Of a stretch of DNA of 64,000 bases, positions 43,292-57,553 are shown one piece after another (position 1 is the first letter of the stretch; the number at the start of each line of letters is the position of its first letter). Source of the DNA: Candidatus Accumulibacter cognatus (GTDB lineage Bacteria > Pseudomonadota > Gammaproteobacteria > Burkholderiales > Rhodocyclaceae); the NCBI GenBank assembly GCA_013414765.1, contig CP058708.1, forward strand, positions 4,211,553 through 4,275,552, in the 5' to 3' direction. Below the pieces are notes generated by a model that saw nothing but the letters and a program-made list of their open reading frames with translations, was not told the DNA's origin and ran no database searches. The translations under genes were made by a program, and so were the position numbers.

Positions 43292-43915
43292 TCAGACTTG
43301 GCCGCTGTCCCGATTCTGCAGACTCAGTCGAACGAGATCGGCGATGCTGTTGACGCGCAACTTGGCCAGCAGTCTCGCCTTGTGAACCTCGACGGTCCGC
43401 GGGCTGATGTCGAGTGCGCGCGCAATGTCGCGGTTGTGCCGGCCAGCAACGACTTTGTCCATCACTTCCCGTTCGCGGGGGGTCAAGGTCGCCAGCAGGC
43501 GCGTGGTTTCAGTCTGCCGATCGCGGTGTTCCTGCGACGCGCTCTGACGGCTGAAAGCCTCGTCGATCGCCCGCAGGAGTTTGTCGTGGTCGATCGGCTT
43601 TTCGAGGAAGTCGACTGCCTGCGTGCGAAACGCCTGCCGCGCCGATTCGACGTCCCCGTGGCCGGTCATCACGATCACCGGCAGCGAGCACCCACTTTCC
43701 AGGAGACGCTTCTGCAGCGTCAGTCCATCCATCCCCGGCATGCGGATGTCGATCAGCAGACAACCGGACCAGTCGCTTCGTCGGGCGGCGAGGAAGCCCT
43801 CCGCGTCGGCAAACAGCACGACCGAAAAACCCTGCAGACCGAGAAGAAGTCCCAGCGCATCGCGTACCGACTGATCGTCCTCGACGATGAAGACAGTATT
43901 CAGGCTAGTTCCCAT
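43292..43915 (-). CDS. Two-component response regulator, FixJ/NarL type
   Basis: Regulator of 207 aa. The receiver has the acidic pair VEDDQS, phospho-acceptor Asp56 (LLIDIRMPGMDG) and Lys in EKPID. The C-terminal LuxR-type HTH reads LTPREREVMDKVVAGRHNRD and SPRTVEVHKARLLAKL. ATG 43915 overlaps the end of the kinase gene by 11 bp; the longer open frame to 44428 is an artefact of the opposite codon phase in the kinase. It pairs with the MASE1 kinase. Confidence 0.93.
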   Translation of the reverse strand: MGTSLNTVFIVEDDQSVRDALGLLLGLQGFSVVLFADAEGFLAARRSDWSGCLLIDIRMPGMDGLTLQKRLLESGCSLPVIVMTGHGDVESARQAFRTQAVDFLEKPIDHDKLLRAIDEAFSRQSASQEHRDRQTETTRLLATLTPREREVMDKVVAGRHNRDIARALDISPRTVEVHKARLLAKLRVNSIADLVRLSLQNRDSGQV

Positions 43916-45488
43916 CAGCAGCTTTCTCCTCCAGGGGAAGAACCAGTTTGAACACGCCGTGATCGGCCACCTCTGCCCACAGGTTGCCGCCGTGCGCCTC
44001 GATGATCGCCCGGCTGATGGCGAGGCCAAGGCCAAGACCGCTGGCCTTTGATGAATGAAACGCTTCGAACAAATGCTCAACCATTTCCTCGGAGACGCCG
44101 GGACCGCTGTCTTCGACCATGACACAGACGCGTCCGGAACCTTCCTGATAGGCCGAAACGCGTACCTGACGCTCCCCCTGGGGGCGTTCGGCAGCGGCCT
44201 CGAAAGCATTGGCAAGCAGGTTGCGCAAGACCACTTCGAACTGCAGCCGATCGACCCATAAGGCACAAGGGGGTGCCGGGTGGAGCACCAGTTCGATCTC
44301 CTGCAGCTTTGCCTGCTCGGAGAAACGCACCGCCACCGAGGACAGGATCGCACGCAGCCAGATTCGCTCGAGTCGCGTCGTGCCGGTACGAAAGAAGTCG
44401 CGCAGGCGACTGACCACATCGGCCGCACGCTGCGATTCGGCGACGATGCGGTCGATCACCTCGCGTAAGCGCTCGCCGCTTTCGCCCTGGGCGAGCAACT
44501 GCTGGCACGCCCGGGTGTATGCCAGCAGGGCCGTCAACGGCTGATGCAGTTCGTGTGACAGTGCGCCGGCCATTTCGCCAGCAGCGGCGAGGCGCAGCGT
44601 CTGCTGCAGTTCAGCGGTCAGCCGCTGTTTTTCGTCAACCACGACGCCAATGAAAAATCCCGACAGCGCGAGGACCAGAACCAGCACTTCAAGCTCAAGC
44701 AGGGTGGGGGCGGAAAGACCAAGCAGGCGGCTGGCGACGATGACTCCTAGCTGGGTCAGTCCGATGGTCAGCACGGCGCCCGCCAGGCCTTGCCTGGCGG
44801 CTGCCCAGGCGATCGGCAGAAAAAGCACCGAAAAGTACTTGAACTCGGTCATCTTGCCGGCAACGAAGACCAGCGCCAGGACGCTGCCGGTGCTCACCAG
44901 GCTCAACGATTCCCGCCCCAGCAGCAGCCGGCGCAAGCGGGTCCGCGCGCGCGTGTCGAGCAGCATCGAAAGGAGCGGCATCGAAACCAGGATGCCGACG
45001 ACGTCGCCCAGCCAGTAGTGCAGGAAAGCTTCGACAACTGTTGCCGGCGGCAGGAAACCGGTCAGGGCCAGAGCAGCAATGAACAGCAGGCTGTTGAACA
45101 GAATGCCAATGACCGTTATCGTTACCCAGTCGATCAGGCCGCGCCGATCGGCAAACATCCCCTTGCTGCCCAGCCGCCGCCGCAGAATCGACGCGATCAG
45201 CCAATAGCCGGCGCTGAGCAGCAATGCAAGGCCGCAGGCCAGGAGCCAGGGCATGGGCAGGTCGCGCGCCCAGGCATCGGCGGCGAGAATCGCCAGCGCC
45301 AGCGGTAACACGGCCCTGCCGCCGTAGCGCATGAGAAAAAGCAGGCCAAGCGCCGGCGCCGGACTCCATGGGGTGACATCGAGGCCGTGCAGGGGATGGA
45401 TATGACTCACCCAGTCGAGCGCGACATAGCCGGCAACGAGCAGCCATGTGTCGCGCCAACCGAGTTGCCGGCTTGCCAACTTCGGCAT
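43905..45488 (-). CDS. MASE1-type membrane sensor histidine kinase
   Basis: Sensor kinase of 527 aa. The N-terminal half (about 1-290) is a MASE1-like block of eight hydrophobic segments (TPWSPAPALGLLFLMRYGG, YWLGDVVGILVSMPLL) with no extracytoplasmic domain. A short coiled linker leads to HisKA with His312 (SHELHQPLTALLAY) and HATPase (NLLANAFEAAAE, EDSGPGVSEE, GLGLGLAI). ATG 45488 (MPKLASRQLG) is chosen over 45560. It is divergent from pstS, 278 bp away, so a link to phosphate regulation is possible but unproven; a PhoB/PhoR pair is not seen. Confidence 0.9.
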   Translation of the reverse strand: MPKLASRQLGWRDTWLLVAGYVALDWVSHIHPLHGLDVTPWSPAPALGLLFLMRYGGRAVLPLALAILAADAWARDLPMPWLLACGLALLLSAGYWLIASILRRRLGSKGMFADRRGLIDWVTITVIGILFNSLLFIAALALTGFLPPATVVEAFLHYWLGDVVGILVSMPLLSMLLDTRARTRLRRLLLGRESLSLVSTGSVLALVFVAGKMTEFKYFSVLFLPIAWAAARQGLAGAVLTIGLTQLGVIVASRLLGLSAPTLLELEVLVLVLALSGFFIGVVVDEKQRLTAELQQTLRLAAAGEMAGALSHELHQPLTALLAYTRACQQLLAQGESGERLREVIDRIVAESQRAADVVSRLRDFFRTGTTRLERIWLRAILSSVAVRFSEQAKLQEIELVLHPAPPCALWVDRLQFEVVLRNLLANAFEAAAERPQGERQVRVSAYQEGSGRVCVMVEDSGPGVSEEMVEHLFEAFHSSKASGLGLGLAISRAIIEAHGGNLWAEVADHGVFKLVLPLEEKAADGN

Positions 45489-45766
45489 ATGGGGTTGCCT
45501 CAGGTAGATCGGACCCTCATTGTGCCCGTGCCCGGGTGGTTTGGGTATTGCCAGAATCACGTACGGGTTTCCCTTATTTTCGTGCCAAGCGCTGACCGAT
45601 AGAGCGGCCGATGAGCTCGTCCCATACCCAAGCCGCTAGCGGTATCCCGTACGGTGCAGCCCGAATTTTCAGGCATCCAAGAGTTTTCTATGATGCCCCA
45701 TCGTGTCATCGGCAGGCGACCAATGACCTACGACAACCACCAAACTGAAATCACTTGGAGAATCTC
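45489..45766. other. Divergent intergenic region between the MASE1 kinase and pstS
   Basis: 278 bp holding the promoters of both directions. I looked for a Pho box (two CTGTCAT-type repeats 11 bp apart) and found only one half-like site, TGTCATCGGC, near 45706, without a convincing partner. A small dyad, GCCGCTAGCGG, lies near 45641. No ORF. Confidence 0.4.
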
Positions 45767-46642
45767 ATGACCTCTCGCTCAATGTTGCGCAAGCTGGCTG
45801 TACTCATGGTCGGTGCGCTGGCGGCCGCCGGCGCATCCGCCAGAACCGAGATCCAGAACAAGGGCTCGGACACCCTGGTCAATGCGGCCCAGTCGCTGGC
45901 CGAACAGTACGGCAAGGTCAACCCCAAGGTGGCGGTCGCGGTATCCGGCGGCGGCTCCGGCACCGGCATTGCGGCGATGATCAACGGTACGGTCGACATC
46001 GCCAACTCCAGCCGCAAGATGTCGGAGAAGGAAATCAAGGAGGCGCAGGCCAAGGGCCGGCAACCGGTCGAGCACATCATCGGTTACGACGCGCTCGCGA
46101 TCTTCGTGCACAAGAACTTCCCAGGCGACTCGATCAGCATCTCCGACCTGGCGAAGATCTACGGCCGGGACGGTGGCGCCAGCAAGTGGAGCGATCTCGG
46201 CATCACCATTCCCGGTTGCAAGGGTGAGATCGTCGTCGTCAGCCGGCAGAACAATTCCGGCACCTACGCCTATTTCAAGGAAGCAGTGCTCGGCGAAAAA
46301 GGCAAGTTCCGCCAGGGGACGCTCGACATGCACGGGTCCAAGGATGTCGCCGACCTCGTCGAGAAAACTCCCTGCGCGATCGGCTACAGCGGGCTGGCCT
46401 ACGTCACCGACCACATGAAGGCGCTCTGCGTTGCCCCGACAGCCGGCAAGCCCTGTGTCAAGCCGACCGAGCAGACGGCTTTCGACGGTACCTATCCGAT
46501 CGCCCGGCCGCTGTTCATGTATACCAACGGTGAGCCGGCCGGCGAGGTCAAGAAGTATCTGGACTGGATCAAGAGCAACACCGGCCAGTGCATCATCGAG
46601 AAGGAAGGCTACGCGCCGATGAAGAAGGTCAGTTGCAAGTAA
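45767..46642 (+). CDS. pstS: Phosphate ABC transporter substrate-binding protein PstS
   Basis: Periplasmic phosphate-binding protein of 291 aa. A signal peptide (MLRKLAVLMVGALAAAGASA) is followed by the mature protein with IQNKGSDTLVNAAQ, VSGGGSGTGIAAMINGTVDI (phosphate loop) and SRQNNSGTYAYF. ATG 45767 follows GGAG by 6 bp; an upstream TTG at 45755 is less likely. First gene of the pst operon; phoU is second, an order different from the E. coli pstSCAB-phoU arrangement. Confidence 0.95.
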   Translation: MTSRSMLRKLAVLMVGALAAAGASARTEIQNKGSDTLVNAAQSLAEQYGKVNPKVAVAVSGGGSGTGIAAMINGTVDIANSSRKMSEKEIKEAQAKGRQPVEHIIGYDALAIFVHKNFPGDSISISDLAKIYGRDGGASKWSDLGITIPGCKGEIVVVSRQNNSGTYAYFKEAVLGEKGKFRQGTLDMHGSKDVADLVEKTPCAIGYSGLAYVTDHMKALCVAPTAGKPCVKPTEQTAFDGTYPIARPLFMYTNGEPAGEVKKYLDWIKSNTGQCIIEKEGYAPMKKVSCK

Positions 46643-46721: not shown

Positions 46722-47783
46722 ATGAGTCATTACGAAGAACGTATCGAGAAGGATCTATTCAAGATCAGGCAGCAGGTAGCGCTCCTTGCCGGACTCGTCG
46801 AGAAGGCACTCGGCGACGCCGTGCACGCTCTGCTGGCCGACGATGACCCCTTGGCCTACGCCACGATTCTGGCCGACAACCGGGTCAATGCCGCCAGTAA
46901 CGAGCTGGACCGGATGTGCAATGCGTTCATCGGGGTACACCTGCCGAGCGGCGGACACCTTCGTCTGATGTCGGCGGTCATCCACACCAACGTCGCGCTC
47001 GAGCGCGTCGGTGACTACGCCGTCACGATCTGCCGCGAGGCGGTGCGACTGGCCTGCCCGAAGGGTCTGATGGCACGCGAGATCGAACTGATGGCAAGCG
47101 ATTCTCGGCAGATGCTGAAGCAGGCCGTCGACGCTTTCGTCGAGGGCAATGCCGAGAAGGCGAAGGCAACGATGGGTATCGCTGATCAGGTCGAACGAAC
47201 CTTCGACCTGGCTTTCGGCGAACTGCTCGGAGAAGGTGAGCGCTTCAACATCAAGGATCTGTTTGCTTACCTGACCGTGTTCAATTCGCTGGAGAGGGTT
47301 TCCGACCAGGCAAAGAACATCTGCGAGGACGCGGTGTTCGCGGTCACTGGCGAGGGCAGGGGGCCGAAGTTCCATCGCATCTTGTTCCTCGACGACGACA
47401 ACAGCCTGCTCGGCCCGCTCGCCGAGGCGATTGCGCGCAAGAACTTTCCGGACGCTGGCGAATATCACAGTCGCGGCCGGATCGCCGGTGTGACGGACCC
47501 CCAGTCGATCGCTCTGCTGCAGGCACTCGGGGTCGACCTCGACCACCACCGGCCGCAGGCTCTCTCCAGCCATCACCAGGAACTCGCCGCGTATCAGATC
47601 ATTGTCAGCCTGCAGGGGCCGGTCAGCGCTTACGTCGAGCAGATCCCCTTTCATACGGTGGCGCTCGAGTGGCCAACCAGGCAGCCTGCCGGCGGGCAGG
47701 CGGACCTGCGGCTCCTCAGCCGCGAGATCGCCGTGCTGGTCAGCCAGCTGATGAACACCCTGCGCGGTCAGGAGAGCGACTGA
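46722..47783 (+). CDS. phoU: PhoU fused to a degenerate LMW-phosphatase/ArsC-like domain
   Basis: Phosphate signalling protein of 353 aa. Residues 1-212 are a two-repeat PhoU with the metal-cluster motifs ERVGDYAVTICRE and ERVSDQAKNICED. From about 216 to the end the chain follows the low-molecular-weight tyrosine phosphatase/arsenate reductase pattern: RILFLDDDNSLLGPLAEAI aligns with the VLFxCxGNxCRSxxAEA loop, and VTDPQSIALLQALGVDLDHH with the following helix. The catalytic Cys is Asp224 and the loop Arg is Leu230, so no phosphatase activity is expected; phosphate or anion sensing is possible. It ends 1 bp before pstC. Confidence 0.88.
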   Translation: MSHYEERIEKDLFKIRQQVALLAGLVEKALGDAVHALLADDDPLAYATILADNRVNAASNELDRMCNAFIGVHLPSGGHLRLMSAVIHTNVALERVGDYAVTICREAVRLACPKGLMAREIELMASDSRQMLKQAVDAFVEGNAEKAKATMGIADQVERTFDLAFGELLGEGERFNIKDLFAYLTVFNSLERVSDQAKNICEDAVFAVTGEGRGPKFHRILFLDDDNSLLGPLAEAIARKNFPDAGEYHSRGRIAGVTDPQSIALLQALGVDLDHHRPQALSSHHQELAAYQIIVSLQGPVSAYVEQIPFHTVALEWPTRQPAGGQADLRLLSREIAVLVSQLMNTLRGQESD

Positions 47784-47784
47784 A

Positions 47785-48735
47785 ATGGCAAGCAACATAC
47801 AGGCGCTCGACAACAGCGCCACCGACAATCGCCTCGGCGATGATTTCGACCGCCGCAACCTCGACTGGTACATCGACAAGATCATTGCCTGCGTCGTTTT
47901 CATCTGCGGCATCTCGGCCATCCTCTTCGTTCTCGGGATCTTCTTCTTCGTCACCAAGGAGGGAATCGGATTCGTTTTCGAGAAGATGGATTTTCGCGAG
48001 TTCTTCCTCACCCCCTACTGGTCACCGAGCGATGCCGAGGACCCCGAGTACGGCATCCTTGCGCTGATGGCCGGAACGGCGAGCGTCACCGGGCTGGCGA
48101 TGCTGGTCTCGGTGCCGTTCTCGCTCGGAGCCGCCATCTACATCGCCGAATTCGCCAGCGGCAAGACGCGCGAGGCACTCAAGGTGCTGGTCGAACTGCT
48201 GGCGGCAATTCCCTCTGTCGTCTGGGGATTCATCGGCCTGGTGATCATGAACCCGCTGCTGATCAAGTGGTTCGACATTCCGGTCGGCCTCTGCGTCCTC
48301 AACGCCGGCATCATCCTTGGCCTGATGGCCGCGCCGATCATGACCTCGATCGCCGAAGACGCTCTCAAGGCGGTCCCCGACCGCTACCGCGAGGCGGCCG
48401 AGGCCATGGGCGCGACCCGCTGGCAGGTGATCTACAAGGTGGTGCTGCCGGCAGCGAAGAACGGTCTGCTCGGCGGCGTCCTGCTCGGTGTCGGTCGTGG
48501 CTTCGGGGAAACCATGGCGGTGCTGATGGCCACCGGTCACGCGGTGAACATCCCGGACAGCCTCTTCGACTCGGTGCGTGCGCTCACCGCGACGATCGCC
48601 GCCGAACTCGGCGAAGCGGTCGTCGGCGGCGAGCACTACCAGGTGCTGTTCACCATCGGCATCTTCCTCTTCCTGGTGACCTTCATCATCAACCTCAGCG
48701 CCGATCTGATCGTGCGCGGCATCCGCAAGGGCTAA
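47785..48735 (+). CDS. pstC: Phosphate ABC transporter permease PstC
   Basis: Inner-membrane permease of 316 aa. Six predicted helices; the N-terminal 35 residues are cytoplasmic and polar. The coupling-helix (EAA) loop reads VPDRYREAAEAMGATRWQVI, with VVLPAAKNGLLGGVLLGVGRG and a conserved FGETMAVLMATGH. The PstC periplasmic loop between TM1 and TM2 is short. It starts 1 bp after phoU and is followed after 5 bp by pstA. Confidence 0.94.
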   Translation: MASNIQALDNSATDNRLGDDFDRRNLDWYIDKIIACVVFICGISAILFVLGIFFFVTKEGIGFVFEKMDFREFFLTPYWSPSDAEDPEYGILALMAGTASVTGLAMLVSVPFSLGAAIYIAEFASGKTREALKVLVELLAAIPSVVWGFIGLVIMNPLLIKWFDIPVGLCVLNAGIILGLMAAPIMTSIAEDALKAVPDRYREAAEAMGATRWQVIYKVVLPAAKNGLLGGVLLGVGRGFGETMAVLMATGHAVNIPDSLFDSVRALTATIAAELGEAVVGGEHYQVLFTIGIFLFLVTFIINLSADLIVRGIRKG

Positions 48736-48740
48736 GCACA

Positions 48741-49631
48741 ATGAACACCGCCAATCCCGCGCTATTTCAGGCCAGCGACCTGAATCAGCGCAACGCACGC
48801 GTGCAGCAACGCTACCGCCTGCTCTTCGGGCTCATGACCCTGCTCCTGATCACGCCGGTGCTGCTGATCCTCGGTACCCTGGTGGTGAAGGGGGGGAGCG
48901 CGATTTCCTGGGAGTTCCTGTTTACCGCGCCGACCGACGGCATGCGCAGCGGCGGAGTATTCCCGGCGCTGCTGGGCACCGTCTGGCTGGTCACCGTCGC
49001 CTTGCTGCTGTCGGTGCCGATTGGCGTCTTCGCGGCGATCTATCTCAGCGAGTATGCCGGCGACAACTGGTTCACGCGGGTGATCAATCTGGCGATCATC
49101 AATCTCGCCGGCGTTCCCTCGATCGTTCATGCCCTGTTCGGCCTGGGTGCCTTCGTCCTCTTCTTCAAGTTCGGCACCAGCATCCTCGCTGCCAGCCTGA
49201 CGCTGGCGGTGATGACCATGCCGGTGGTCATCGTCGCCACCCGCGAATCGCTGCAGGCGGTACCGCAGGCCTTTCGCGAGGCGTGCTGGAACATGGGCGC
49301 GACGCGCTGGCAAACGATCCGCCGCGTCGTTCTTCCGAACTCGATCACCGGCATCCTGACCGGCGTTATTCTCGAAGTCTCGCGCACCGCCGGGGAGACG
49401 GCACCCATCATGTTCACCGGCGCGGTATTCTTCACGCCATTCCTGCCGCAAAGTGTCTTTGACCAGACCATGGCGCTGTCCCTGCACCTCTTCGTGGCTG
49501 CAACGCAGGTGCCGGGGATCTCCGAGGAGGTCCCCTTTGGCGTCGCGCTGGTCCTGATCGCTCTCGTGTTGACCATGAACAGTGTCTCGATCGCCTTCCG
49601 CATGTGGCTGAGAGGGAAAAAGAAATGGTAG
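48741..49631 (+). CDS. pstA: Phosphate ABC transporter permease PstA
   Basis: Second permease, 296 aa, with six predicted helices. The EAA loop is VPQAFREACWNMGATRWQTI, then RRVVLPNSITGILTGVIL and SRTAGETAPIMFTGAVFF. ATG 48741 is chosen; the open frame to 48267 lies within pstC in another phase. The stop overlaps the start of the first pstB-like gene. Confidence 0.94.
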   Translation: MNTANPALFQASDLNQRNARVQQRYRLLFGLMTLLLITPVLLILGTLVVKGGSAISWEFLFTAPTDGMRSGGVFPALLGTVWLVTVALLLSVPIGVFAAIYLSEYAGDNWFTRVINLAIINLAGVPSIVHALFGLGAFVLFFKFGTSILAASLTLAVMTMPVVIVATRESLQAVPQAFREACWNMGATRWQTIRRVVLPNSITGILTGVILEVSRTAGETAPIMFTGAVFFTPFLPQSVFDQTMALSLHLFVAATQVPGISEEVPFGVALVLIALVLTMNSVSIAFRMWLRGKKKW

Positions 49632-50443
49632 GGCTTGTGGCCACTCCTGCACCGGTAGCCGGTGCGACCACGGCGGCGGTCGCCGCGCTTCCGAACAAGC
49701 TCGAAGTGAGCAGTCTGACGATCCGCTACGGCAGTGCCGTGGCGCTGCGCGACGTCAGCCTGTCCATTCGGGAACACGAGATCTTCGGCATCATCGGCCC
49801 TGCCAACGCCGGCAAGACCTCGTTTCTCAAGGCGATCAACCGCATGGACGTGTTCACCAGTGGCATGCGGGTGGATGGCGAGATCCGTTTCAACGGTCGC
49901 GACACGCGCCGCCTGAACAACGACTATGCGCTGCGAAGTCGCATTGGGGTCGTCTTTCCGCTACCCGTCGGTCTGCCGATGACGGTGTACGAGAACGTCG
50001 CCTTGTCGCCGCGCCTGCGCGGGATCAAGGAAAGTGCCGAACTCGACGTCATCGTCCAGCGTTGTCTGACGCGCGCCGCGCTCTGGGATGAAGTCAAGGA
50101 CCGCCTGCACGCGCTCGGCAGCCTGCTCTCGGGCGGCCAGCAACAGCGCCTGACGATCGCCCGTGCGCTGTCGCAGGACCCCGACCTGCTGATGCTCGAC
50201 GAGTTTTCGATTGCCGTCGACCCGGTGACGACGATGCGCATCGAAGAAGTGCTCAAGGAGTTGCGCAAGGAAGTGACGATCATCCTGGTGACCAACCTCG
50301 TGCAGCAGGCGCGGCGGCTGGCCGACCGGACGGCATTCTTCCTTGGCGGCGAGTGCGTCGAGATCGGGGTGACCGAAGACCTCTTCACCGGCGAAGTCAA
50401 GGACCAGCGCACGCGCGACTATGTCGAGGGCAGGTTCGGCTAA
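49625..50443 (+). CDS. pstB: PstB-like ATPase 1: intact signature, lost Q-loop Gln and switch His
   Basis: Nucleotide-binding subunit of 272 aa. It has Walker A GPANAGKT (58-65), the ABC signature LSGGQ (168-172) and Walker B LLMLDE (188-193). It departs from canonical PstB in three places: the Q-loop Gln is Pro112 (VVFPLPVGLP), the D-loop region reads EFSIAVDP instead of EPCSALDP, and the switch His is Asn224 (LVTNLVQQ versus VTHNM). Such a subunit could lend its signature to a partner's site but should hydrolyse poorly at its own Walker A. ATG 49625 overlaps pstA. Confidence 0.92.
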   Translation: MVGLVATPAPVAGATTAAVAALPNKLEVSSLTIRYGSAVALRDVSLSIREHEIFGIIGPANAGKTSFLKAINRMDVFTSGMRVDGEIRFNGRDTRRLNNDYALRSRIGVVFPLPVGLPMTVYENVALSPRLRGIKESAELDVIVQRCLTRAALWDEVKDRLHALGSLLSGGQQQRLTIARALSQDPDLLMLDEFSIAVDPVTTMRIEEVLKELRKEVTIILVTNLVQQARRLADRTAFFLGGECVEIGVTEDLFTGEVKDQRTRDYVEGRFG

Positions 50444-50531
50444 CCGTCGGACGCCCTACGTCGGAAGTGGCCCACAACAGGCGTCGAATAGCCGGCGATC
50501 CCGGCATTGTCAACGAAGGATAGGATCCAGG

Positions 50532-51338
50532 ATGAACATCGAACAGACGGCTGCGCTCCTGCAGCCGACTCCGCAGTATGCGATCGACAGCCAGCGACTC
50601 AACCTCTGGTACGGGACTTTTCAGGCCCTCTTCGATGTTGATCTGCGTATTCGCCAGGGGATCATCACCGCGATGATCGGGCCTTCGGGATGCGGCAAGA
50701 GCACCTTCCTGCGCAGCGTGAACCGGATCAACGAACGGCTGGGCTACGTGCGCATCGAGGGTAGCATCCGGGTCATGAACGAAAACATCTACGACCCTGG
50801 GGTCGAACTCGTGCAGGTGCGCAAGCAGGTCGGGATGGTTTTTCAGCGCCCGAATCCGCTTCCCATCTCGATCCGTGACAACATTCTGTTCAGTCACCGG
50901 CTGCACGCCGAGGGCGGTGGCGAGGTGGAGCAGGGGACGCCCGACGAGATCGTCGAAAAATCGCTGCGCCAGGTGCTGCTCTGGGACAAGGTCAAGGACC
51001 GCCTGAAGCGCAAGGCCACCGAACTTTCGCTCGAAGAACAGCAGAAGCTGTGCATCGCCCGCTTGCTGCCGGTGAAACCGAAGGTTCTGCTGATGGACGA
51101 ACCGTGCTCGGCGCTCGATCCCAAGGGGACCGAAGCGGTCGAGGAACTGCTCTGGGATCTGCGTGGCGAATATACGATCCTCATCGTCACCCACAACATG
51201 GCGCAGGCGCGGCGCGCCAGCGAGGAGTGCGTGTTCATGCTGATGGGCAAGGTAGTCGAACATTCAAGGACCGACGTGTTGTTCGTCACACCTGCCCACA
51301 AAGAAACCGCGGACTACATCGAAGGGCGCTACGGATAG
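50532..51338 (+). CDS. pstB: PstB-like ATPase 2: intact Walker motifs, degenerate signature
   Basis: Nucleotide-binding subunit of 268 aa. Walker A GPSGCGKS (50-57), Q-loop Gln105 (VFQRPNP), Walker B VLLMDEP (Glu190), D-loop SALDP and switch His221 (VTHNM) are all canonical. The ABC signature LSGGQQQRL is replaced by LSLEEQQKL (165-173), losing both Gly. It is the complement of the preceding gene. ATG 50532 follows AGGATCCAGG; the longer frame from 50421 runs back into the first pstB. Last gene of the pst operon. Confidence 0.93.
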   Translation: MNIEQTAALLQPTPQYAIDSQRLNLWYGTFQALFDVDLRIRQGIITAMIGPSGCGKSTFLRSVNRINERLGYVRIEGSIRVMNENIYDPGVELVQVRKQVGMVFQRPNPLPISIRDNILFSHRLHAEGGGEVEQGTPDEIVEKSLRQVLLWDKVKDRLKRKATELSLEEQQKLCIARLLPVKPKVLLMDEPCSALDPKGTEAVEELLWDLRGEYTILIVTHNMAQARRASEECVFMLMGKVVEHSRTDVLFVTPAHKETADYIEGRYG

Positions 51339-51571: not shown

Positions 51572-52262
51572 GCCCGATGTCGGAGTCCCGGCGGCTGGTC
51601 GGTTGGGGTGAGGCATGCACCCCAACGGTGACGGGAGGGGATCGGTGTTAAGCTTGGCGCCATGGAAATCGACTTGACTTGCCGAGCTGCCGTTGAGGGG
51701 ATATCAGCGTGCGGGATTCTGGATTGCCTGGGTCGCCGCATGCCATGACGGGAATGGCTCTTGAACTGGCGGTATCGCCGGACGGCCATTTCTATCTCGA
51801 GACCGTAGCGTGCGAGTTCGACCTGCCGGATGCCGCCGTCGCCCGGCGTATCCGCAAAAGCTTCGCAGCGGGTAGTGCGGCCGGTCTGCTCGATCTGGGG
51901 GCGATCGAACTCGCCAGTTCCTTACCCCCTTCGCTCGCCTACGGGCGCGGCCTGGCCCATTTCTTCATGGCACGGCTATGTGCGATTCCCGACCTCGAGA
52001 GCCAGTGGGCGAGAGCCGAGTTGCCCGCCCCTCGCGACGATCTGGCGCGCCTGGCAGCGGCGGCGCCACCGCTCACCGGCGCCGAATACCTTGATCTCGA
52101 GCAACTGGAAGTGCTATGGGCGGATCTGCGAACCGTCGCGCGGGAAAAAAATTGCCGCTGCCGGTGGCAGTCCGCACACCTGGTTGAAGGAGGCGCACCC
52201 GAGCTGGAACCTGGTGGGCCGGGTGTGTTTTCATCTGGCCGAGAACAGGAACGACGAGCGCG
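51572..52262 (+). repeat. Direct repeat A, copy 1 (691 bp)
   Basis: Near-identical to 54675-55364: upstream region and first part of a SNF2 helicase gene. Only scattered substitutions were seen plus one extra A (seven A at 52144-52150 versus six in copy 2). Both copies include the hairpin GTTGGGGTG / CACCCCAAC upstream of the gene (about 51599-51623 and 54702-54726). Confidence 0.9.
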
Positions 52263-53264
52263 ATGAGGACGGCAGGCAGCCACCGGCAGGAAAGCCCCGG
52301 TCAGGGAGCAGCAGATCCTGCGGGCACAGCTCCTCAATCGATTCGAAGAGCCTCTGTCATCCGTTACCACTGCCCATCTGCAACGGGACGCTGAGAAACC
52401 GTTCGATTCCCGGCAAGTAAAGGCCAAACGCCACGCCACTGACGATCGAACGTATCCCCTTCTTCAGCATCGTCAGCTGAACCGTCGTGCCATCGCCGGC
52501 AACCACCCGCAGCCCCTGCCATCGAGGAATCGAAATCTCCTTCTCCACGAGGGCGATCAACTCCCGGTTCACCTCGTCGAAGACCCGCGAACTGATCTTG
52601 TAGCGCGCGGCGGAAAAGGCTTGTGCGCTCACTTTCCGGATCGACTCCGCCCGATTCCAGAGGTCGGCAAAGAACGTATTCCACTCCGACTGGACGGCGC
52701 CCTGTACACCCGAGAGCAGAAAGCTTAGGATCACGGGGAAGGTGAGCATGCGGTCGCGGGTAAAATGCCGGGGATCGAGACGGGATTTCTCCATTAGCTC
52801 CTGGGAGGACAGATAGCGGGCGAGTGCATTAATTACATTTGAATACTTCAGGGTCAGTGATGGCATCATTTCTCTCTTCTTATCAGCTTGTTGGAGAGAC
52901 GCTATGCTATATGGACTAGGCGGACAAAGGGATCTCCGACGAATTATGCCTTCGTGCTAAATTGGGAGGATTGGCCGTCGACGGGCTGATGCGCCTGAAG
53001 GGCCGCTGGGTGGAAGTCGATCGCGAGGCGCAGGCAATCAAGAATCCGGGCACGCGGCAGACCCGGGCGGTCAAACGGCTGCCCAGCCGTGTGCGCCTGG
53101 CGCTCACCGGCACGCCCGTGGAGAATCGGCTCGGTGACCTGTGGTCGCTGTTCGATTTGATCTGTCCGGGACTGCTCGGCTCAGCGCAGGCGTTCAGCCG
53201 ATTCGCGCGCCGCCTCGCAGAGGACGAGCACGCCGGTTACGCGCCGCTGCGCAAGCTCGTGTAG
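51709..53264 (+). pseudogene. Decayed partial duplicate of the SNF2 helicase gene
   Basis: The first part (51709-52262) matches the start of the intact helicase at 54812, with a frameshift from an extra A near 52150 (EKNCRCRW instead of EKIAAAGG). The reading is then replaced by a transposase fragment on the other strand (52263-52869 or slightly beyond). Helicase sequence returns at 52983 (GLMRLKGRWVEVDRE), jumps in frame from the equivalent of 55867 to 56507 (639 bp missing, CGAG shared at both edges), and ends at a TAG (53262-53264) shortly after RLAEDEHAGYAPLRKLV. ATPase motif I and the whole C-terminal lobe are absent. Confidence 0.88.
52263..52869 (-). pseudogene. IS4 family transposase fragment
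   Basis: From ATG 52869 the frame reads MPSLTLKYSNVINALARYLS, FPVILSFLLSGVQGAVQ, LRVVAGDGTTVQL (first catalytic Asp) and FGLYLPGIERFLS, then a TGA at 52357. In-frame similarity continues as LFESIEELCPQDLLLPDRGFP (second Asp) and is cut off at the junction with the helicase copy at 52262. The C-terminal half with the catalytic Glu is missing. Confidence 0.75.
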
Positions 53265-54674: not shown

Positions 54675-55364
54675 GCCCGATGTCGGAGTCCCGGCGGCTG
54701 GTCGGTTGGGGTGAGGCATGCACCCCAACGGTGGCGGGAGGGGATCGGTGTTAAGCTTGGCGCCATGGAAATCGACTTGACTTGCCGAGCTGCCGTTGAG
54801 GGGATATCAGCGTGCGGGATTCTGGATTGCCTGGGTCGCCGCATGCCATGACGGGAATGGCTCTTGAACTGGCGGTATCGCCGGACGGCCATTTCTATCT
54901 CGAGACCGTAGCGTGCGAGTTCGACCTGCCGGATGCCGCCGTCGCCCGGCGTATCCGCAAAAGCTTCGCAGCGGGTGGTGCGGCCGGTCTGCTCGATCTG
55001 GGGGCGATCGAACTCGCCAGTTCCTTACCCCCTTCGCTCGCCTACGGGCGCGGCCTGGCCCATTTCTTCATGGCACGGCTATGTGCGATTCCCGACCTCG
55101 AGAGCCAGTGGGCGAGAGCCGAGTTGCCCGCCCCTCGCGACGATCTGGCGCGCCTGGCAGCGGCGGCGCCACCGCTCACCGGCGCCGAATACCTTGATCT
55201 CGAGCGGCTGGAAGTGCTATGGGCGGATCTGCGAACCGTCGCGCGGGAAAAAATTGCCGCTGCCGGTGGCAGTCCGCACACCTGGTTGAAGGAGGCGCAC
55301 CCGAGCTGGAACCTGGTGGGCCGGGTGTGTTTTCATCTGGCCGAGAACAAGAATGACGAGCGCG
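54675..55364 (+). repeat. Direct repeat A, copy 2 (690 bp)
   Basis: Upstream region and first 184 codons of the intact SNF2 gene, near-identical to 51572-52262. The two copies lie 3.1 kb apart in the same orientation, so recombination between them could remove the intervening toxin-antitoxin genes. Confidence 0.9.
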
Positions 55365-57553
55365 CACCGTTCGCTTTCCTCGCCACCTATGCCGCGCGCT
55401 TGTCCCGGCAGGCCACAGTGCAGCATCGGCCGCTCGCTGGTGCGCTGCAGGAATACGCCGGCGCCGGCGAGCGCAACGCCCTGCTCGGGTTGCTGCTGCC
55501 GATCCAGAAGGCTGCCGAGCACAGCCCATGGCTCAAGTCGCTGGTCGATTCGGGCGCCATTTTTCATCCGCTGGCCTGGACTCCGGCCGAAGCTTACCGC
55601 TTCCTGCAGGATGTTCCGGCCTTCGAGGCCAGCGGCGTGGTGGTGCGCATCCCGGACTGGTGGCGGCCGCGCCTGCCGCCGCGCCCGCAGATCGACATCC
55701 GTCTGGGTCACCAGGTCGCCGGGCTGGGCCTCGCTGCGATGATGGACTTCCGGGTCGATCTGACGCTCGACGGCGAAGCCCTCTCGGACGAGGAATGGCA
55801 GCAGGTGCTGGCCCCCGGTGAAGGGCTGATGCGCCTGAAGGGCCGCTGGGTGGAAGTCGATCGCGAGAAGTTGCAGTCGGTGCTCGAACACTGGCAGGAG
55901 GTGCGGCGATCGGCGGGCGAGGGCATTTCCTTCCTCCAGGGCATGCGCTTGCTGGCTGGCGCCACCCTCGACGGTGACGCGGCGGACGACTTGCCCGCGG
56001 GCACCGCCGAGTGGTCGAAAGTGATCCCCGGCGAATGGATGAGGGGCGTTCTGGAGGGGCTGCGCGGCACACAAGCGGGGGCTGACCCCGGCCCCGAGCT
56101 GAAGGCGCAATTGCGTCCCTACCAGCAGGCTGGCGTGCATTGGCTGTGGTGGCTCAATCGCCTCGGGCTCGGCGGCTGTCTGGCGGATGACATGGGGCTT
56201 GGCAAGACGGTGCAGGTGCTCGGCCTGCTGCTGCTCCTGAAGCGCGAAGGCGATCCGGGACCGCATCTGCTGGTGCTGCCCGCTTCGCTGATCGCCAACT
56301 GGCAAGCCGAGATCGAACGCTTTGCGCCGACCCTGCGGACGCTCATCGCGCACGCTTCAGCGTTGCCCGCCGGCGCACTGGCGACACTATCCGCCGCGCA
56401 GTTCGGCGGCGAAGGTGGCGTCGACCTGGTCATCACCAGCTACGGGACGCTGGCACGCACCAACTGGATGGCCGAAGTCTGCTGGTCGCTGGTCGTGCTC
56501 GACGAGGCACAGGCGATCAAGAATCCGGGCACGCGGCAGACCCGGGCGGTCAAACGGCTGCCCAGCCGCGTGCGCCTGGCGCTCACCGGCACGCCGGTGG
56601 AGAACCGGCTCGGTGACCTGTGGTCGCTGTTCGATTTCATCTGTCCGGGACTGCTCGGCTCAGCGCAGGCGTTCAGCCGATTCGCGCGCCGCCTCGCAGA
56701 AGACGAGCAGGCCGGTTACGCGCCACTGCGCAAGCTTGTGCAGCCCTACATCCTGCGACGTCTGAAGAGCGACCGGCAGATCATCGCTGATCTGCCCGAC
56801 AAGACCGAACTCAAGGCCTATTGCCCGCTGACCCAGGTGCAGGCCGCCCTCTACCAGGAGTCGGTGGCGACGCTGGTGCAGCAGATCGAAACACTCGACG
56901 GCATCCAGCGACGCGGCGTGGTGCTCGCCTTCCTGATGCGCTTCAAGCAGATCTGCAACCACCCCTCGCAATGGCTCGGTGACGGCGCCTACTTGCCCGG
57001 CGACAGCGGCAAGTTCTCGCGCCTGCGTGAATTGGCCGAAGCCATCGCGGCGCGCCAGGAGAAAGTCCTGGTGTTCACCCAGTTCCAGGAGATGACCGGG
57101 CCGCTGGCAGGATTCCTGCGGGAGATCTTTGGCCGACCAGGCCTGGTGCTGCATGGCGGAACGCCGGTGAAGGCGCGCCAGTCGCTGGTCGAAGCCTTCC
57201 AGCGTGAGTTTGGTCCGCCGTTCTTCGTCCTCTCGCTGAAGGCGGGTGGCACGGGTCTCAACCTCACTGCCGCCGCGCATGTCATTCATTTCGACCGTTG
57301 GTGGAACCCGGCGGTGGAAAATCAGGCGACCGACCGCGCCTACCGCATCGGGCAGAAGAAGAATGTCCTGGTGCACAAATTCATCTGCCGTGGTACGGTG
57401 GAAGAGAAGATCGATGCCCTGATCGAAACAAAACTGGGGCTGTCGAACGAGATCGTCGAGGGCGGCGCCGAAACGCTGCTGACCGAAATGAGCAGCGACG
57501 ACCTGTTGCGGCTGGTGTCGCTCGACCTGGAGAGAGCCATCGACGAGATTTGA
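54812..57553 (+). CDS. SNF2 family DEAD/DEAH-like helicase
   Basis: Intact 913-aa protein. An N-terminal region of about 430 residues (bacterial SNF2-associated) precedes the SNF2 ATPase: motif I DDMGLGKT with Lys465, motif Ia LLVLPASLIANW, motif II DEAQ at 564-567, LTGTPVENRLGDLWSLF, and helicase C-terminal lobe with KVLVFTQFQEM, LKAGGTGLNLTAA and HFDRWWNPAVENQATDRAYR. These proteins are DNA translocases; some act in phage defence, others in transcription or repair. The GTG start at 54812 follows AGGGG; ATG 54848 is an alternative. A SWIM-domain gene follows 42 bp downstream. Confidence 0.93.
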   Translation: MRDSGLPGSPHAMTGMALELAVSPDGHFYLETVACEFDLPDAAVARRIRKSFAAGGAAGLLDLGAIELASSLPPSLAYGRGLAHFFMARLCAIPDLESQWARAELPAPRDDLARLAAAAPPLTGAEYLDLERLEVLWADLRTVAREKIAAAGGSPHTWLKEAHPSWNLVGRVCFHLAENKNDERAPFAFLATYAARLSRQATVQHRPLAGALQEYAGAGERNALLGLLLPIQKAAEHSPWLKSLVDSGAIFHPLAWTPAEAYRFLQDVPAFEASGVVVRIPDWWRPRLPPRPQIDIRLGHQVAGLGLAAMMDFRVDLTLDGEALSDEEWQQVLAPGEGLMRLKGRWVEVDREKLQSVLEHWQEVRRSAGEGISFLQGMRLLAGATLDGDAADDLPAGTAEWSKVIPGEWMRGVLEGLRGTQAGADPGPELKAQLRPYQQAGVHWLWWLNRLGLGGCLADDMGLGKTVQVLGLLLLLKREGDPGPHLLVLPASLIANWQAEIERFAPTLRTLIAHASALPAGALATLSAAQFGGEGGVDLVITSYGTLARTNWMAEVCWSLVVLDEAQAIKNPGTRQTRAVKRLPSRVRLALTGTPVENRLGDLWSLFDFICPGLLGSAQAFSRFARRLAEDEQAGYAPLRKLVQPYILRRLKSDRQIIADLPDKTELKAYCPLTQVQAALYQESVATLVQQIETLDGIQRRGVVLAFLMRFKQICNHPSQWLGDGAYLPGDSGKFSRLRELAEAIAARQEKVLVFTQFQEMTGPLAGFLREIFGRPGLVLHGGTPVKARQSLVEAFQREFGPPFFVLSLKAGGTGLNLTAAAHVIHFDRWWNPAVENQATDRAYRIGQKKNVLVHKFICRGTVEEKIDALIETKLGLSNEIVEGGAETLLTEMSSDDLLRLVSLDLERAIDEI

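Follow-up and report, generated by a model that had tools for sequence, protein, structure and literature searches.

The window analyzed here is a 64,000-nucleotide stretch of the genome of Candidatus Accumulibacter cognatus (contig CP058708.1, positions 4,211,553 to 4,275,552), and its subject is a predicted phosphate (Pst) ATP-binding cassette (ABC) importer operon with two adjacent, divergent PstB-like ATPase genes. On the plus strand, the genes run in the order pstS, phoU, pstC, pstA, ATPase 1, ATPase 2. The phosphate-binding protein gene pstS (45767..46642) scored 234 bits against NCBIfam TIGR02136 (cut-off 206.6), and the permease genes pstC (47785..48735) and pstA (48741..49631) scored 279 bits against TIGR02138 (cut-off 196.45) and 262 bits against TIGR00974 (cut-off 193.45), respectively. 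With PstS, PstC and PstA encoded in one operon and all above their cut-offs, the system falls within the Pst importer family. The phoU gene (46722..47783) encodes a protein that matches Pfam PhoU, carries a C-terminal extension and scored 126.6 bits against TIGR02135, slightly below the cut-off of 130.25. The starts of pstS, phoU and pstA were set by inspection. Only one pstC-pstA pair is present within the operon. ATPase 1 (PstB1; 49625..50443; 272 residues) starts at an ATG and shares its first 7 bases with the end of pstA; ATPase 2 (PstB2; 50532..51338; 268 residues) follows after a gap of 88 bases. TIGR00972 (PstB) was the best family for both ATPases, yet their scores of 273 and 315 bits, respectively, lie below its curated cut-off of 343.2. 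The host genome is a single contig of 5.17 Mb, and the closest named relatives at the locus, among the best 80 of 585 confirmed matches and with the very nearest records possibly left out, were other Candidatus Accumulibacter.

For each ATP site of an ABC transporter, one subunit supplies the Walker motifs, Q-loop Gln and switch His, and the other supplies the signature motif. ATPase 1 was found to have Tyr35 in the A-loop, a Walker A motif GPANAGKT with Lys64, the signature LSGGQ at residues 168-172 and Asp192-Glu193 in Walker B, with Pro112 (codon CCG) at the position of the Q-loop Gln and Asn224 (codon AAC) at that of the switch His. ATPase 2 has Tyr27, GPSGCGKS with Lys56, Gln105, Asp189-Glu190 and His221, and LSLEEQ (165-170) replaces LSGGQ. 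An earlier, sequence-only reading of this DNA had named Pro112, LSGGQ 168-172 and Asn224 of ATPase 1 and Gln105, LSLEEQ and His221 of ATPase 2, and each of these residues proved correct when read from the window. Under the site rule, the motif states imply two nucleotide-binding domains (NBDs) predicted to form one complete composite site (PstB2 with the PstB1 signature) and one incomplete site. Thus, the proposal that the two proteins bear complementary motif losses is borne out at the level of sequence: neither ATPase alone should be able to make a canonical site, and the pair should make exactly one.

To place these substitutions among relatives, genome contigs were scanned with ATPase 1 as query. 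The best 80 of the 585 confirmed matches divided into 27 loci that belong to a separate family (L009-L034 and L047), all from metagenome-assembled genomes according to their titles, and 53 loci with ordinary PstBs; phylum names of loci and surveys are used as labelled in their records. In a 26-row alignment that joined ATPase 1 with relatives sharing 52-85% identity with it, Pro112, Asn224 and LSGGQ were invariant. In a 23-row alignment of ATPase 2 and its relatives, Gln105 and His221 were invariant, as was Leu167, and LSGGQ was absent. Complete PstB1 sequences scored at least 439 bits against a PstB1 profile in the 27 loci, and at least 407 after later searches, and ordinary PstBs scored at most 317; no complete sequence among the script-scored loci fell between 317 and 407 bits. 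In the genome surveys, E-value limits of 1e-105 and 1e-112 were applied, with which weaker intermediates would stay hidden. Rarer forms may also be missed, because loci were picked by the PstB1 search and by scores against profiles that include the motif columns.

Motif counts were taken from a single alignment of all fetched loci, in which identical matched stretches were counted once and rows that covered too little sequence or were split between frames (from the broken copy L008/L089 and from L009, L014, L093, L144 and L146) were left out. All 73 PstB1 sequences have the Pro, LSGGQ, Asp-Glu and Asn, and the Walker Lys is visible in 72, the other being cut before it. The Lys, Gln and Asp-Glu occur in 67 of 67 PstB2 stretches (66 genes, since two stretches are one gene cut differently) and the switch His in 66, with LSGGQ in none. 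The PstB2 signature instead reads LSLEE (27), LQLEQ (18, plus one in L138), LSLEQ (15) or one of six single forms. The 64 other sequences consisted of 59 ordinary PstBs, four truncated or disrupted sequences from the pair family and one third ATPase (L024), with the third ATPase of L025 set apart. Each of the 59 ordinary PstBs is intact, with Gln, [LM]SGGQ (54 LSGGQ, five MSGGQ) and His. The PstB equivalog combination of Gln, LSGGQ and His in one chain was therefore found in 0/73 PstB1 and 0/67 PstB2, and the motif states predicted from the two window genes hold when both are aligned with PstBs of many genomes. Since the replacement residues are invariant across relatives, they are conserved and not decaying, and this conservation rules out chance or sequencing error as the source of the losses. 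The third ATPases themselves are degenerate PstB-like proteins encoded after the pair, approximately 1 kb downstream in L024 (9489-10286) and directly downstream in L025 (7612-8496), with a further case in L132; they have Arg or Thr at the Gln position, an altered signature and Asn at the His position, and their place in the tree is unsure owing to long branches.

The two genes also travel together. A search for the same adjacent gene pair, ATPase 1 first, found it in Accumulibacter, Planctomycetota, Acidobacteriota, Verrucomicrobiota and others, so that the arrangement occurs in many unrelated bacteria and is not peculiar to a single genome. A complete PstB2 lies downstream of PstB1 in 22 of the 27 loci (in L027 after a gap of ~0.7 kb); a contig end cuts PstB2 in two, and in the other three the contig ends at or within PstB1. 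When genomes were surveyed with both profiles, PstB1 and PstB2 were detected in 19 and 18 of 28 genomes of the genus, in 19 and 17 of 199 Planctomycetota (the phylum of L016/G192), and in 28 and 27 of 247 Acidobacteriota (the phylum of L029/G205), respectively. Every mismatch could be explained. In G435, G310, G399 and G549, a cut PstB2 adjoins PstB1 at a contig end. G423, a candidate for PstB2 without its partner, was rejected when the last 83 residues of PstB1 were found at the contig start ahead of PstB2, and G416, a candidate for PstB1 without its partner, when its PstB2 was found split over two reading frames. Neither an orphan partner nor either gene as the only PstB, an occurrence that had been set beforehand as evidence against pairing, was found in the surveys of 28, 199 and 247 genomes. 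Surveys with PstB1 alone detected it in 2/185 genomes of the window's class and in 4/194 Verrucomicrobiota (the phylum of L027), all four with PstB2 downstream. The pair is widespread but patchy, and rare within the window's class. Just beyond the window end (L089) lie an ATPase 1-like fragment (G000:C1:4276027-4276161) and a second, disrupted ATPase 2 gene (4280170-4280914), so a partial duplication of the operon may have taken place.

Phylogenetic analysis of 77 rows, performed with a quick method without bootstrap, placed PstB1 in one clade (Shimodaira-Hasegawa-like approximate likelihood ratio test [SH-aLRT] support 100) and PstB2 in another (SH-aLRT 93), so that each needs only one origin. 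The window's PstB1 and PstB2 share 36% identity, less than the 41-53% that each shares with eight ordinary PstBs. Over 21 loci, pairwise distances of PstB1 and PstB2 were correlated with an r of 0.87, close to the 0.89 of PstC and PstA; correlations of PstB1 or PstB2 with PstC or PstA were 0.75-0.80, and those with PstS were 0.53 and 0.63. At the coupling-helix region of PstA, the sequence REACW was found in 18/21 family members versus 0/19 ordinary PstA compared. Mycobacterial OppD/DppD has a degenerate site, and OppD/DppD structures appear among the structure matches of the ATPase models. AlphaFold single-chain models of ATPase 1 and ATPase 2 (mean predicted local distance difference test scores of 86 and 90, respectively) both matched E. 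coli PstB best, with template modelling scores of 0.83-0.87 by query length; in the structure alignments, ATPase 2 was 46% and ATPase 1 41-42% identical to it.

An ordinary PstB is nonetheless encoded elsewhere in some of these genomes. The window's own genome has one at a distant locus (G000:C1:3723984), which scored 388 bits against TIGR00972, above the cut-off. At an E-value of 1e-65, 11 of the 27 PstB1 genomes also showed an ordinary PstB and none was seen in the other 16; the further match in G200 is a third ATPase. Within the genus, four of 19 PstB1 genomes showed no other PstB at this threshold (G415, G417, G420 and G422, rated 97%, 90%, 100% and 83% complete, respectively). Given the 16 genomes in which no ordinary PstB was seen, a role only beside another PstB is unlikely as a general rule.

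Taken as a whole, the complementary motifs, constant pairing and absence of orphan partners support the earlier suggestion of an obligate heterodimer. We consider it quite probable that the operon encodes a phosphate importer and, jointly, that its motor is an obligate PstB1-PstB2 heterodimer replacing the usual PstB homodimer. Several points weigh against this interpretation. The PstB2 of L138 has Tyr at the switch His, the sole exception among 67. The distance correlations are weak evidence, because shared ancestry contributes to them and was not removed. Mixed dimers may form in the window's genome and in the 11 others with an ordinary PstB. Finally, the absences of PstB are soft, because the 27 genomes are metagenome assemblies with gaps and a divergent PstB could fall under the 1e-65 threshold.

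Four other explanations were considered. The operon might encode a Pst-related transporter for an oxyanion other than phosphate, its asymmetric motor being an adaptation to that cargo, and the scores of both ATPases below the PstB equivalog cut-off are in keeping with this. We regard it as improbable, however, since the PstS, PstC and PstA scores exceed their NCBIfam cut-offs, phoU lies within the cluster in 20/27 loci, the R..GET motif, which is associated with phosphate transport, is retained in PstC of the window and in both PstC and PstA of 21/21 aligned family loci, and in the 16 genomes mentioned above no other PstB was seen at an E-value of 1e-65. Alternatively, PstB2 (or PstB1) could be a regulatory or signalling subunit, for example one acting with PhoU, while the remaining partner joins an ordinary PstB from another locus. 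The ordinary PstBs of the window's genome and of 11 of the 27, together with the frequent presence of phoU in the cluster, would fit such a role, but the lack of a visible ordinary PstB at an E-value of 1e-65 in 16/27 genomes and in G420 (rated 100% complete), and of any orphan partner in the surveys, makes it very improbable.

We find it slightly harder still to credit two separate homodimers, PstB1-PstB1 and PstB2-PstB2, serving the same or different permeases. Adjacent pstB genes that keep all motifs in both copies do exist, in two Bacillota (L045, L063), a Gemmatimonadota (L073) and an Actinomycetota (L082), and none of these copies falls within the PstB1 or PstB2 clade; L040 has two PstBs ~5 kb apart, both intact. 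Adjacency alone was consequently rejected as a sign of asymmetry. In Enterococcus faecalis, moreover, overexpressed PstB2 can substitute for PstB1, according to extracts of PMC12096839. A PstB2 homodimer of the window type, however, would have LSGGQ in neither site, and both sites of a PstB1 homodimer would be missing Gln and His; the operon has a single pstC-pstA pair, and the motif losses are conserved across phyla. That the pair is a decaying duplicate whose losses reflect pseudogene-like drift, as the broken copy and fragment beyond the window end might suggest, can be dismissed almost entirely, given that Pro112, Asn224 and Leu167 are invariant, both reading frames are uninterrupted and the motif states recur across many phyla.

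For the PstB1-PstB2 heterodimer, the motifs suggest how the two sites could work. Site A would combine Walker A and B, Gln and His of PstB2 with LSGGQ of PstB1; being fully canonical, it would hydrolyse ATP and drive transport. Site B would combine the A-loop Tyr, Walker A Lys, Walker B Asp-Glu, Pro and Asn of PstB1 with the L-x-L-E signature of PstB2, a composition that could plausibly bind MgATP and hydrolyse it poorly. Site B might consequently serve as a long-lived clamp or as a regulatory hub; with poor hydrolysis there, each cycle would cost about one ATP. Such a division, with hydrolysis mainly at site A and stable ATP binding at site B, would be consistent with a proposal made for exporters in the excerpted text of PMC7756269. 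A more far-reaching picture can be offered tentatively, and its parts are doubtful in combination: a separate class of importer, spread over many phyla and often its host's sole Pst, might spend one ATP per cycle, use a non-exchanging ATP in the second site as clamp or as sensor of energy or phosphate, bind PstA and PstC each to one ATPase, and involve a phosphatase-like tail of PhoU in the readout.

The PhoU tail of the window (47379-47783) weakly resembles low-molecular-weight phosphatase/arsenate reductase (PF01451, E-value 0.014, under the cut-off). Seven PhoU proteins, from the window and six relatives, were compared: PF01451 exceeded the Pfam cut-off in L013, L016 and L027, was weak in the window and L010, and was not listed for L012 and L022. 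A PhoU-phosphatase-like fusion in pst operons may be a separate signalling part. The phoU gene lies between pstS and pstC in the window and in 14 of the 27 loci, unlike the E. coli order of pstSCAB-phoU. It is found before pstS in five loci (L023, L027, L028, L029 and L031) and elsewhere in L024 and L025; in L014 it precedes pstC and no pstS was seen, and phoU was not seen in five of the 27 loci (L020, L021, L026, L030 and L032). Divergent from pstS is a gene for a MASE1 sensor histidine kinase (43905-45560, minus strand), which could sense for the pst operon. Directly after the operon, the start of an SNF2-type helicase gene is present as a truncated copy (51709-52266), and this start recurs with a near-identical protein sequence at 54812-57553. 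A by-eye search for a Pho box upstream of pstS gave a single half-site-like TGTCAT, on account of which we make no Pho box claim, and promoter and terminator scans gave results at chance level.

The PstB motor is generally regarded as a homodimer, and the function of degenerate sites has been argued mostly from exporters. Degenerate sites are common in exporters and present in fused importer NBDs, and tandem pstB genes are likewise known. In the titles and abstract openings of the open full-text literature, a body outside of which most subscription papers and preprints lie, we recognized no report of an asymmetric Pst system or of complementary PstBs. The system probably represents a new, distinct subfamily of Pst importers whose motor is asymmetric by its motifs and probably heterodimeric. 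A conserved, separable two-gene motor on an ordinary nutrient importer would make the question of degenerate sites addressable with a small, defined substrate, and it raises the questions of whether one ATP is enough per phosphate and what role the silent site plays. Accumulibacter is a polyphosphate-accumulating organism of wastewater treatment. Because both window genes score below the PstB cut-off, gene counts based on it could misjudge phosphate uptake in Accumulibacter, Planctomycetota and Acidobacteriota; excerpts of Accumulibacter papers (PMC12604563, PMC11131965) treat Pst as one system.

The system resembles canonical E. coli PstSCAB in its operon content, its PstS, PstC and PstA families and the fold of its PstBs, and differs in that the E. 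coli complex (PDB 9k3s, 9k3x) has two copies of one PstB, whereas two divergent, complementary ATPases are encoded here. Two adjacent pstB genes are shared with the tandem PstBs of E. faecalis (PstB1/PstB2) and Bacillus subtilis (PstBA/PstBB), the latter two having been modelled in one complex, as stated in part of PMC11466899. In that Firmicutes-type arrangement, both copies keep all motifs, unlike the window pair; passages of PMC12096839 say this of both E. faecalis copies and note that no published study had addressed the relative contributions of tandem pstB paralogs. The fused NBDs of RbsA and NupO likewise form an importer NBD pair with one degenerate site, but within a single polypeptide, and there the second Walker A Lys is lost in both and the Walker B acids in NupO (from sections of PMC11466899).

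With heterodimeric exporters (TM287/288, TmrAB, BmrCD, TAP), the pair shares two NBDs that form one consensus and one degenerate composite site, the latter being described as conserved in exporters in portions of PMC7756269. The likeness to TM287/288 drawn in the sequence-only reading thus holds for the arrangement of sites and fails at the catalytic residue. PMC7544095 describes the loss of the Walker B Glu as a hallmark of degenerate sites in exporters, whereas the predicted degenerate site of this importer lacks the Q-loop Gln, switch His and signature and keeps the Walker B Glu, Asp-Glu being invariant in 73/73 PstB1.

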